The notes under the pieces were generated by a model. That model was given only the letters and a program-made list of their open reading frames with translations, was not told the DNA's origin and ran no database searches. DNA of 64,000 bases from contig NZ_JAAATY010000003.1 in NCBI RefSeq assembly GCF_013280595.1, positions 1 through 64,000 on the forward strand, written 5' to 3'. Shown here piece by piece: positions 1,403 through 45,002 of the stretch. The position numbers and the translations under genes were made by a program. Position 1 is the first letter of the stretch. Each line of letters starts with the position of its first letter. The stretch comes from Kibdelosporangium persicum (GTDB lineage Bacteria; Actinomycetota; Actinomycetes; Mycobacteriales; Pseudonocardiaceae).

Positions 1403-1406
1403 TTAA

Positions 1407-1474
1407 CAGGTGCCCTCTTCTGTGATGGCTTGTTCCCTAGACAAGAACAATCATCCCAGCTCAGAGGGCACCTG
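1407..1474. repeat. 12-bp inverted repeat upstream of the transposase
   Basis: CAGGTGCCCTCT at 1407-1418 is matched perfectly by AGAGGGCACCTG at 1463-1474, with a 44-base loop. It starts 5 bases upstream of the transposase start codon. It could be the inner and outer copies of an IS terminal repeat or a leader hairpin of the transposase transcript. The sequence does not decide between these. Confidence 0.6.
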
Positions 1475-1515
1475 CCCGTCTACGACATACCCACCACCAA
1501 CACATTCACCGGTGG

Positions 1516-1547
1516 ATCAGGGTTCTAACCCTGATAACCACTCACGA
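1516..1547. terminator. Palindromic terminator, copy 1 (one arm truncated)
   Basis: The right arm at 1527-1547 (beginning AACCCTGATAACC, ending CACTCACGA) matches the repeat family seen at 12635-12678 and 63218-63261. Only about 9 bases of the left arm (ATCAGGGTT, 1516-1524) remain before the sequence diverges on the IS side. It starts 1 base downstream of the stop codon of the Hsp70-like gene and probably terminates that transcript. There is no U-tract, as is usual for high-GC actinomycetes. Confidence 0.6.
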
Positions 1548-30668: not shown

Positions 30669-30815
30669 GGCTCCATCGTGGCACCGGTTCCCCCGACGAA
30701 ACCGGTGCCACCCCCGTCACTACGGATTTTTAACGCCATTCGCGCGTGCCGGGGGCAGGAAGAGGAGGGGCGTGCGGACGCGGGGGCAGCAGACGCACGC
30801 CCGGGACCTGGGGAC

Positions 30816-42929: not shown

Positions 42930-43421
42930 CTACGGGGTACGCGGCCGCGTCGGCCGGTGGGCCCGGCTCGTCCGCGGGTCCCTGGCCCGTTCGCCCTGGT
43001 GTTCCGCGGGATTCGCGATCGGCAACGCCGAGGCGGCGATCAGGACCACGGCCGTGATGGCGTGCAGCCACGCGTCGGCGGTGTTGACCGCCAACGGATC
43101 GGTGCCCTGCCGCACCATCATCGAGATGATGTCGTAGGCGAACAACGCGACGAACGCGCCCGCCATGGTCCACGACACCAGTTTGGAGCGGTCGATCAGG
43201 AATCCGGCGATGATCGTCAACGCACCGAACAGGAAATGGATGAAGTTCAACACGGTCGTCACGCCGAACAGGTTCCACAACAAGTCGGGGTCGTTGCCGC
43301 CCCTCAGGCCACCACCGACGTTGGTGTCGTCACTGATCGACGCGAACCCGGAGATCGCCAGCACGACGTAGAAGACACCGATCGCCAGGACCAGCAGCCG
43401 TACCATTTTACGGGCAGACAT
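42930..43421 (-). CDS. DUF4383 four-TM membrane protein
   Basis: 163 residues with four membrane helices (MVRLLVLAIGVFYVVLAISG; LNFIHFLFGALTIIAGFLI; WTMAGAFVALFAYDII; AITAVVLIAASALPIA) and the GVTTVLNFIHFLFG motif of DUF4383. The basic C-terminal tail is cytoplasmic. ATG 43421 has an AAGGGAG ribosome site. Function unknown; such proteins are often part of stress (sigma B/F-like) regulons. Confidence 0.88.
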   Translation of the reverse strand: MSARKMVRLLVLAIGVFYVVLAISGFASISDDTNVGGGLRGGNDPDLLWNLFGVTTVLNFIHFLFGALTIIAGFLIDRSKLVSWTMAGAFVALFAYDIISMMVRQGTDPLAVNTADAWLHAITAVVLIAASALPIANPAEHQGERARDPRTSRAHRPTRPRTP

Positions 43422-43605
43422 GAGTTCTCCCTTCCGACTGGGGACTACCCTCGGGCGAGCCACGTCACACCCGTGTCCGGAACACCACGGCCGTCCGGCG
43501 AGTTAATCTCAGTGACTGGTGCGGAACGAGTCCCCGGGCCTCACCCAAAGCCATCGGGGAATACCGGGTCAAGCCGGAGCCCCCATGCGCCACTCGCCGC
43601 GAGGC

Positions 43606-44020
43606 GACCGCCGCACCGGTCAGCCCACCCCTCGGCTCGCGTACTCCCCCCTCCGCGAGCCGGGGGTGGCCTGAGCGAACGAAAGAGACCTGTCCCCCAC
43701 GGGCGGCCGACCCCCAGGGCCGCCCGGCGACCTCTGGCCGGCGTTCCCCCCTCCACCGGCCAGGGGTCGGCTGAAAAGGGTGAGCCGCCGCAACGGCCGC
43801 CCTCGCACCTCTGGCCCGTGTATCCCCCCTCAGGCGGGCCAGAGGTGCGGCAAAGCCTGACTGTCCACCACGAATGGGTGACCCGCCCGGAGTGTCACCC
43901 GCACCCCTGGCTCGTATTTCCCGCGCTGCGGCCAGGGGTGCCTCGATCCCCATGGATGAGCGGCGACCCCGACGCCGCTCGCACCCCTGGCTCGCGTACC
44001 CCCAGGCGAGGCAGGGGTGC
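43606..44020. repeat. Array of five paired hairpins (structured non-coding region)
   Basis: Five tandem units, each a small hairpin followed within 0-3 bases by a large one. Large stems: 43625-43641/43654-43669; 43728-43741/43756-43769; 43805-43817/43836-43848 (perfect 13 bp); 43901-43911/43931-43941 (perfect 11 bp); 43981-43995/44006-44020. Small stems: 43606-43610/43617-43621; 43701-43708/43718-43725; 43777-43803; 43876-43882/43894-43900; 43958-43965/43973-43980. Large stems share CACC(C/T)CTGGC, and loops share G4-6 then TAC on the minus strand. Upstream, 43513-43524 pairs with 43611-43622. The last unit ends 1 base from the udgX stop. No coding frame explains it. Confidence 0.85.
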
Positions 44021-44021
44021 T

Positions 44022-44651
44022 TTACTTCCCTTTCACGGCACCGGATGCCGTCTTCAGGTCGGCGACGAACGCGGAGTACGCCGCGTCCCTGTCCGGCGCG
44101 CGCAGGATCGCCGAGGGATGCACCGTCGCCGTGATTCGCGCGACACCGCTTTTCCCGGTGTTCTCAGGAAATTCCAAGATTTCGCCGCGGTGCCGGGTCA
44201 GCCTGAAGGACGGTCCCAGTAACGACTTCGCGGCCGTCGCACCAAGGCAGACAACAAGTTCCGGCTGTACTCGATCGAGTTCGGCCAGTAGCCATGGCTT
44301 GCAGGCGACCACTTCGGTACGGGACGGCGTCTGGTGGATCCGGCGCTTGCCGCGTTCGGCCGGTTTGAACTTGAAGTGCTTGACGGCGTTGGTCATGTAG
44401 ACGTCCTGCCGGTCGATCCCGGCGTCCGCCAACGCTTTGTCCAGCAACCGGCCTGCCGGGCCGACGAACGGCTCACCCGCCCGGTCCTCCTGGTCGCCTG
44501 GCTGCTCGCCGACCATCATCACGGCCGCATTGGACGGTCCGGCACCGAAAACGGTCTGCGTGGCGTCCTGGTAGAGGTCACATCCATGGCACTGGCAGGC
44601 CGCTTCGCGCAACTGGTCCAGATCGGCGTTGTCAGGTGGGTCAGCCGTCAT
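44022..44651 (-). CDS. udgX: UdgX-type uracil-DNA glycosylase (family 4-like)
   Basis: 209 residues. Motifs: CHGCDLYQDATQTVFGAG with the Fe-S cysteines, GEQPGDQEDRAGEPFVGPAG (active-site motif A with Gln-Pro-Gly-Asp-Gln), and HPSAILRAP. The insertion KRRIHQTPSR is the UdgX signature; in characterised UdgX the His in R-I-H covalently captures the uracil site. It is therefore expected to form a covalent complex with uracil-containing DNA rather than act as a simple glycosylase. ATG 44651 overlaps the stop of a 40-residue ORF (ATGA). The 3' end runs straight into the hairpin array. Confidence 0.93.
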   Translation of the reverse strand: MTADPPDNADLDQLREAACQCHGCDLYQDATQTVFGAGPSNAAVMMVGEQPGDQEDRAGEPFVGPAGRLLDKALADAGIDRQDVYMTNAVKHFKFKPAERGKRRIHQTPSRTEVVACKPWLLAELDRVQPELVVCLGATAAKSLLGPSFRLTRHRGEILEFPENTGKSGVARITATVHPSAILRAPDRDAAYSAFVADLKTASGAVKGK

Positions 44652-44770
44652 TCAAGCCCTCGCACGATCGTCGGCTCGAACTCGAACTCGGTCTCCTCGG
44701 TGGCTTCACGCGGAGCGGGCAGTTGTTCGTCCTGCTTGTCGAGAAGTTGTTCTTCCTGTGTGGTGGGCAT
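44648..44770 (-). CDS. Small acidic protein coupled to udgX
   Basis: 40 residues: starts MPTTQEEQLLDKQDEQL, ends EFEFEPTIVRGLE. Strongly acidic, no signal peptide or membrane helix. A good ribosome site (CAGGAGACACGCA-ATG) and a 4-base ATGA overlap with udgX support it as a real gene. An in-frame ATG 48 bases upstream would give 56 residues. It is too short for most gene callers. No homologue is recognised; the acidity suggests a DNA mimic or a regulator of the coupled glycosylase, which is speculation. Confidence 0.65.
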   Translation of the reverse strand: MPTTQEEQLLDKQDEQLPAPREATEETEFEFEPTIVRGLE

Positions 44771-44846: not shown

Positions 44847-45002
44847 TCAGGCGGGGTCCATCCCGCTCAGTCCATCCGGGACGGATTCGTCCTCGCCCTG
44901 CGGGTCCTCGTCGGCGTACGTCGGCTTGGTGTGCTCCTCGGCGAAGTCGCTGTCCTCTTCCATGCTCCTGGCGGTCTGCGGGTCGATCTCAGGTGTGCTC
45001 AT
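44847..45002 (-). CDS. Small acidic protein (51 residues)
   Basis: Begins MSTPEIDPQTARSMEEDSD, continues with HTKPTYADEDPQGEDE and ends SGMDPA. About a quarter of residues are Asp or Glu. Codon third positions are GC-rich like those of real genes here. It lies upstream of and in the same direction as the 40-residue ORF and udgX, and is divergent from the nitroreductase gene with 42 bases between starts. It may be the first gene of the udgX transcript. Function unknown. Confidence 0.6.
   Translation of the reverse strand: MSTPEIDPQTARSMEEDSDFAEEHTKPTYADEDPQGEDESVPDGLSGMDPA

Follow-up and report, generated by a model that had tools for sequence, protein, structure and literature searches.

The hairpin array lies between two genes read on the minus strand, in the intergenic gap bounded by the start codon side of one, encoding a DUF4383 protein (PF14325; start at 43421), and by the stop of the other, udgX (44022). 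The latter gene was assigned to UdgX by TIGR03914 (264.1 bits, cut-off 189.95), and the position right after its stop, as given in the original prediction, holds for this genome. The window, by which we mean the whole 64,000-nt stretch of DNA analyzed, also contains an Rfam match to the actinobacterial sRNA Ms_IGR-7 (1405–1521, plus strand, 56.2 bits). The features of the locus are collected in Table 1.

Table 1. Coordinates of the putative promoter, the head domain and the hairpin array in the window.
Feature	Position	Strand	Basis
ECF-sigma-type promoter motif: -35 GGAAC (43479–43483), 18-nt spacer, -10 GTT (43502–43504)	43479–43504	+	
Head domain, 110 nt	43514–43623	+	model R1, 109 bits; covariation in P1 and P3
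P1, closing stem of head	43514–43524 / 43611–43621	+	alignment, covariation
Conserved CCCCGGGC in head	~43532–43539	+	alignment
P3, inner stem of head	~43556–43559 / 43580–43583	+	alignment, covariation
GNRA hairpin CGCC-GCGA-GGCG of head	43595–43606	+	alignment
Large hairpin 1, loop TACTCCCCCCTC	43629–43666	+	hairpin folding
Small hairpin, unit 2, loop GACCCCCAG	43700–43726	+	folding; within R2 match 43701–43769
Large hairpin 2, loop containing TTCCCCCCTC	43728–43769	+	folding; R2 match
Small hairpin, unit 3, loop without C run	43778–43802	+	R2 match; end by eye
Large hairpin 3, loop containing TATCCCCCCTC	43803–43850	+	folding; R2 match
Small hairpin, unit 4, CCC at most in loop	43876–43900	+	folding; R2 match
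Large hairpin 4, CCC at most in loop	43901–43941	+	folding; R2 match
Small hairpin, unit 5, loop with GACCCCG (by eye)	43958–43980	+	folding; R2 match
Large hairpin 5, loop GTACCCCCAG; possible terminator	43981–44020	+	hairpin folding
Pyrimidine-rich tail TTTACTTCCCTTT; possible terminator tail	44021–44033	+	sequence

The array comprises five large hairpins, four of which have a small hairpin 0–1 base 5′ of them. The original prediction had described five units, each a short hairpin followed within 0–3 bases by a longer one. The five large hairpins and four of the pairs stand, but unit 1 is no such pair, because its presumed small hairpin (~43606–43621) more plausibly forms the 3′ arm of P1, the closing stem of a separate head domain. 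Likewise, the arm CACC(C/T)CTGGC said to be shared by the large stems is exact in units 3–5 but only approximate in units 1 and 2. The minus-strand loops that had been quoted are present, but on the plus strand a run of at least four C occurs in only six of the nine loops (by eye); the fourth large loop (CCC) and two small loops without a long run fall short, and units 2 and 5 are the only ones in which both loops carry such runs (by eye).

Region 43560–44025 folds 8.5 sd below its dinucleotide shuffles on the plus strand and 5.7 sd below them on the minus strand; for neither strand did any of 100 shuffles fold as low. The 64-kb window has 40 strong hairpins, four of them within the 0.4 kb of the array, and these four are among the only five with a C4 loop; G4 loops are absent from all 40. 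The sole other C4-loop hairpin found in the window, with a CCCCC loop, lies outside the array at 30678–30711. These data confirm that the array in the window is real and more than a product of chance.

The units also covary, as the original prediction had supposed for the array, and they do so across relatives. In a set of 13 chosen units, aligned by MAFFT without structure and with window units 3 and 4 left out, 15 of 25 stem pairs were changed on both sides, and the covariation score of 0.355 (0.210 when shuffled) was reached by 0 of 500 shuffles; on one of the five measures, that of further pair types, 75 of 500 shuffles did as well. Pairing was 100% in 13 distinct small hairpins and 91.8% in 23 distinct large ones, compared with 66.8 and 51.3%, respectively, with re-dealt arms, figures that are inflated because the hairpins were chosen by pairing, so that the MAFFT unit alignment is the fairer comparison. 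For all such shuffle counts and binomial tests, here and below, the relatedness of the sequences overstates independence.

From these units we built a plus-strand model, R2, which includes window units 2 and 5 and leaves out units 3 and 4. In the window it matched unit 2 (43701–43769, 71.4 bits) and unit 5 (43958–44020, 51.5 bits), both among the model's own sequences, as well as unit 3 (43778–43848, 45.2 bits) and unit 4 (43876–43941, 40.1 bits), which lie outside them.

Directly 5′ of the array lies the head domain. Its model, R1, was derived from an alignment of 31 copies, the window copy among them, in which 97.3% of the stem cells were paired (32–45% for slid structures) and 10 of 23 pairs were changed on both sides. 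On none of five covariation measures did any of 500 shuffles score as high. Covariation is uninformative on the GNRA-capped hairpin, since that hairpin is invariant.

The head extends well beyond the array locus. DNA of the region was matched in 8 of 8 genomes of the window's genus, and its most similar part is the stretch 5′ of the array on the plus strand; this head stretch was recovered by DNA search in 88 of 200 family genomes, often in several copies and sometimes within a few hundred bases. With R1, matches were obtained in 171 of the 298 order genomes searched and in 71 of the 296 from the class; a draw from the phylum gave 9 of 246, all of them from the own group, the same order or the same class. 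Stricter filters were used in the searches over more than 40 genomes (R1 in order, class and phylum; R2 in the family), at the cost of weak matches. A head pattern scan of named genomes gave at least 118 stretches, 61 of the 80 listed being taken forward; among the matches listed are Streptomyces, Micromonospora, Actinomadura, Nonomuraea, Microbispora, Saccharothrix, and others. One exact match to the pattern, also among those listed, comes from L179, a sequence whose title names a Bacillota metagenome bin. In L100 (twice, 1591–1676 and 1773–1858), L102 and L099 the head has a short form of 84–86 nt.

The window's own genome has a second head copy (G000:C2:317208–317321), and a search of the 110 nt behind it gave no strong hairpin. 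Rfam 15 gave no match over the head, either in the window at E values up to 10 or in 35 other head loci scanned at E-value limits of 5, 1 and 0.5; the sole overlap was 3 bases of a chance-level miRNA hit in the window. A known riboswitch was considered, as a cobalamin-like core was suspected by eye, and rejected for want of any such Rfam match in the window (E ≤ 10) or the other loci. No conserved neighbor gene of the head was apparent among the listed loci (25 queried), and our literature search found no publication title describing this head or array. Together, these results show that the head recurs in many actinomycetes, covaries and was not found in the RNA-family library tested; we take it to be a conserved part of an RNA family widespread among actinomycetes.

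Upstream of the head lies a motif of the form GGAAC/T-N18-GTT, which we take to be that of SigR/SigH-type (SigR/SigH/SigE-like) ECF promoters. Searched as GGAAN-N16–20-GTT within 60 bases before the head, it was found at 117 of 126 distinct heads and was absent in nine; heads with identical bodies or too little upstream sequence had been dropped, untallied, before the count. In control windows displaced by 300–700 bases the motif occurred in 6 of 991, and behind the head on the reverse strand in 2 of 126. The spacer measured 18 nt in 108 of the 117 motifs, 19 in seven and 17 in two, and the -35 element read GGAAC in 87, GGAAT in 18, GGAAA in seven and GGAAG in five. Two of the loci with short heads, L100 and L102, keep the motif; L099 is among the nine without it. 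As the motif by itself occurs in the 64-kb window at least as often as expected by chance (3 found, 1.4 expected), the promoter statistics rest on the relatives. GTT starts 10–18 nt 5′ of the head model, which would put the start of the RNA at or just before P1. Thus, the window motif and its counterparts in relatives agree in placing an ECF-type promoter form at a set distance before the RNA, and the promoter motif is tied to the head.

Several observations bear on the strand. G-U pairs are tolerated in RNA, and the opposite strand would show A-C in their place. In P1 we counted 61 G-U and 12 A-C pairs over 69 of 91 arm pairs, the other 22, with fewer than seven Watson-Crick pairs, being left out; the array hairpins gave 14 G-U and 4 A-C (p = 0.03, from observations that are not independent). 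This excess of G-U over A-C indicates an RNA strand bias to plus. R2 scored 35–71 bits on the plus strand of the window and at most 24.3 on the minus strand, as may be weighed against its construction from plus-strand sequence. The original prediction had read the RNA on the minus strand, with G-rich loops, a reading that we reject on the promoter, the G-U/A-C counts and the loop composition. The RNA strand of the array is therefore probably plus, which makes the loops C-rich, and on the sequence features we regard a non-coding RNA on this strand as very likely. A separate structured RNA, one of the options first proposed, is the best reading of the locus and is backed by both structure and covariation.

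C-rich loops are enriched behind the head. Of 110 distinct hairpins within 110 nt after it, C4 loops were seen in 50 and G4 loops in 0, compared with 10 and 8, respectively, of 377 hairpins elsewhere within 1.5 kb. With loops of at least 5 bases only, which leaves out short-loop terminators, the C4 counts were 50 of 75 after heads and 10 of 287 elsewhere. The first hairpin after the head had a C4 loop in 52 of 108 cases, and behind 18 of 126 heads there was no such hairpin. By group, the first loop was of the C4 kind in 7 of 7 loci of the window's genus, in 13 of 20 others that we label, by our own assignment, Pseudonocardiaceae, and in 32 of 81 elsewhere, mostly yes in Streptomyces and no in the Micromonospora loci shown. 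Given the 32 of 81 outside the family and the 18 heads without a hairpin, a C loop is no constant feature of this RNA family.

In the window's genus the tail takes another form, with 5, 4, 4, 2, 1, 3, 3 and 3 large hairpins at loci L001–L008, respectively. R2 gave 24 matches in 7 of the 8 genus genomes, every one at the array locus; the remaining genome (G007, locus L005) has the head and one large hairpin and no R2 match. The DNA of the region has a single match in its own genome. These data show that the tail is expanded in one genus at one locus, and the lack of dispersed copies led us to reject a mobile repeat, the case in which the units would occur only as random mobile elements.

A covariance model of the units, proposed as a check along with the original prediction, thus found the genus matches at the array locus, but not these alone: among 200 family genomes, R2 also detected ten single double hairpins outside the genus (L238–L247, ~1501–1575). 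No head was found near them at E values up to 0.01, the one hit obtained being at chance level (13.1 bits, E 0.91), and no 6C match to these double hairpins was obtained at the same limit. Nine of the ten, all except L243, have loops that closely resemble GACCCCCAG and CUCCCCCCUC. The L241 double hairpin also aligned to the Pseudomon-1/ErsA model with 35.5 bits, under the cut-off of 50. Such head-less double hairpins with loops similar to those of the units are what might be expected if the array were a polycistronic sRNA precursor, from which cleavage between units, by RNase E or RNase III for instance, would release separate 6C-like double-hairpin sRNAs. Where inspected by eye, however, no ECF motif precedes the stand-alone double hairpins, so that these may represent a different RNA with the same architecture, and we consider processing of this kind unlikely.

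The neighboring genes separate the array from udgX. Six of seven relatives have udgX (71–77% identical) at places away from the array. Since the array stays where udgX lies elsewhere, it is no long 3′ UTR of udgX, as had been suggested from its position. Besides such a UTR, a recombination-site array or a mobile repeat would account for an array adjoining the udgX stop in the window's genome, yet in relatives the array keeps other neighbors, and the confinement of all 24 unit matches, from 7 of 8 genus genomes, to the array locus speaks against recombination sites as it does against mobility; the chance that any of these three is correct seems negligible. DUF4383 lies beside the array in five relatives (L002, L004, L006, L007, and L008) and a nitroreductase (PF00881) near it in four (L002, L003, L006, and L007, within the fetched stretches). 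In L005 neither of these nor the small peptide gene described next was seen, and the head precedes a gene read by eye as DUF4331. Two genes for acidic peptides were noticed in this part of the window. The gene at 44648–44770 (minus strand) specifies 40 aa with the end EFEFEPTIVRGLE and has relatives beside the array in L002, L004, L006, L007, and L008 and, weakly, in L003 (E 0.022); the 51-aa peptide at 44847–45002 was not matched in any of the relatives' loci that were searched.

Tandem terminators that insulate convergent genes, the hairpins only stopping transcription from both sides, would fit the last hairpin, which lies just past the udgX stop in the window's genome and could end both transcripts. 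A single hairpin would suffice for that purpose, however, and the head, the promoter and the C-rich loops on one strand would be left unexplained. Furthermore, a scan of 43300–44200 for sigma-70 promoters and terminators found none of either, a U-tailed terminator included. This explanation is accordingly very improbable.

The reading that we prefer is a non-coding RNA of ~0.5 kb, transcribed on the plus strand from the ECF-sigma-type promoter, with the array as its 3′ tail. It would start at ~43511–43514, at the base of P1, and end at or after the last hairpin, ~44020–44033. In relatives, the head is usually followed by a terminator-like hairpin, C-rich in its loop in about half; in the window's genus, this tail has been multiplied into a hairpin series with several 6C-like pairs. 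The RNA would accumulate under whichever stress activates the sigma factor. Its C-rich loops could then pair with several mRNAs, at G-rich Shine-Dalgarno regions or at G tracts, and thereby block translation and favor decay, as in 6C/B11. Several loops per molecule might provide high dosage or serve many targets. By analogy with these RNAs, we infer a trans-acting repressor role for the array RNA; transcription, the sigma factor, termination, targets and repression are likewise parts of the model that we infer. The whole mechanism, a stress-induced plus-strand RNA with mRNA-pairing C-rich loops, appears to us somewhat probable.

A protein sponge would offer another use for the same loops. By analogy with CsrB-type RNAs, an RNA that titrates a protein would be expected to repeat a similar loop on stems that vary, as the array does, and the C-rich loops might titrate a protein that binds single-stranded C, such as Rho. 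Against this, the loops resemble those of 6C/B11, which are reported to pair with mRNA (PMC10470900, PMC12395582), and we judge a sponge to be improbable.

Returning to the mRNA-pairing model, we searched for the complement of the large loop before start codons and obtained six sites, compared with three for a reversed-pattern control. One of the six precedes a convincing gene, encoding a 201-aa response regulator with PF00072 and PF00196 (LuxR-type) domains (L250). It is only a candidate target, a lead and not evidence.

Whether the head represents an undescribed ECF-sigma-controlled RNA class across Actinomycetia, and the genus tail a multivalent 6C-like concatemer, we regard as evenly balanced. 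If true, one stress promoter would deliver several mRNA-pairing loops per molecule. What is known of actinomycete stress responses concerns mainly proteins; a non-coding RNA that is conserved, seems to belong to an ECF sigma regulon and occurs in Streptomyces too could add a repressive arm that is testable by ordinary genetics. With between one and five large hairpins each, the eight genomes of the genus constitute a natural dosage series with which the role of repeated C-rich loops could be probed.

Three known systems invite comparison. With the sRNAs of ECF sigma regulons (SigR/SigH/SigE), the locus shares the promoter form GGAAC/T-N18-GTT; our literature search gave no title that describes this head. 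Sponge RNAs of the CsrB/RsmZ type have many hairpins sharing one loop motif, GGA. The array similarly consists of many hairpins with a similar loop motif, but on the likely RNA strand its loops are C-rich and not GGA.

The closest likeness is to 6C/B11. According to PMC4046766, 6C was named after two stem-loops with six C each. For B11, the 6C RNA of mycobacteria, C-rich loops have been reported to pair with ribosome-binding sites and G tracts (PMC10470900, PMC12395582), the C-rich loop of its terminator has been described as the pairing region (PMC12395582), and its promoter is described as having a SigA-like -10 (PMC12395582), in contrast to the ECF-type promoter of the array. The Rfam 6C model (RF01066) aligned to the plus strand of window units with 22.7 (unit 5, E 1.3) and 20.9 bits (E 2.7), neither significant. 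Units of relatives gave 43.7 bits (L002, E 0.002) and 34.9 bits (L003, E 0.76), and at E values up to 1 the model did not match L001, L004, L005 or L006. The gathering cut-off of 47 bits was thus reached by no unit of the window or the relatives, the best being 43.7. The genuine 6C RNA of the window's genome lies elsewhere and scores 72.6 bits. The original statement that no named element has this form calls for correction: the two-hairpin layout with C loops is that of 6C, to which the units align below threshold. The shared traits are an adjacent hairpin pair, loops of the GACCCCC and UCCCCCC kind and an actinomycete host. The small-large alternation of the array disagrees with 6C, whose stems are nearly equal (12 and 13 pairs in the Rfam model), and, unlike 6C, the array units stand in tandem behind a separate head. 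We do not claim that the array units are 6C, but they look like 6C and may work like it.
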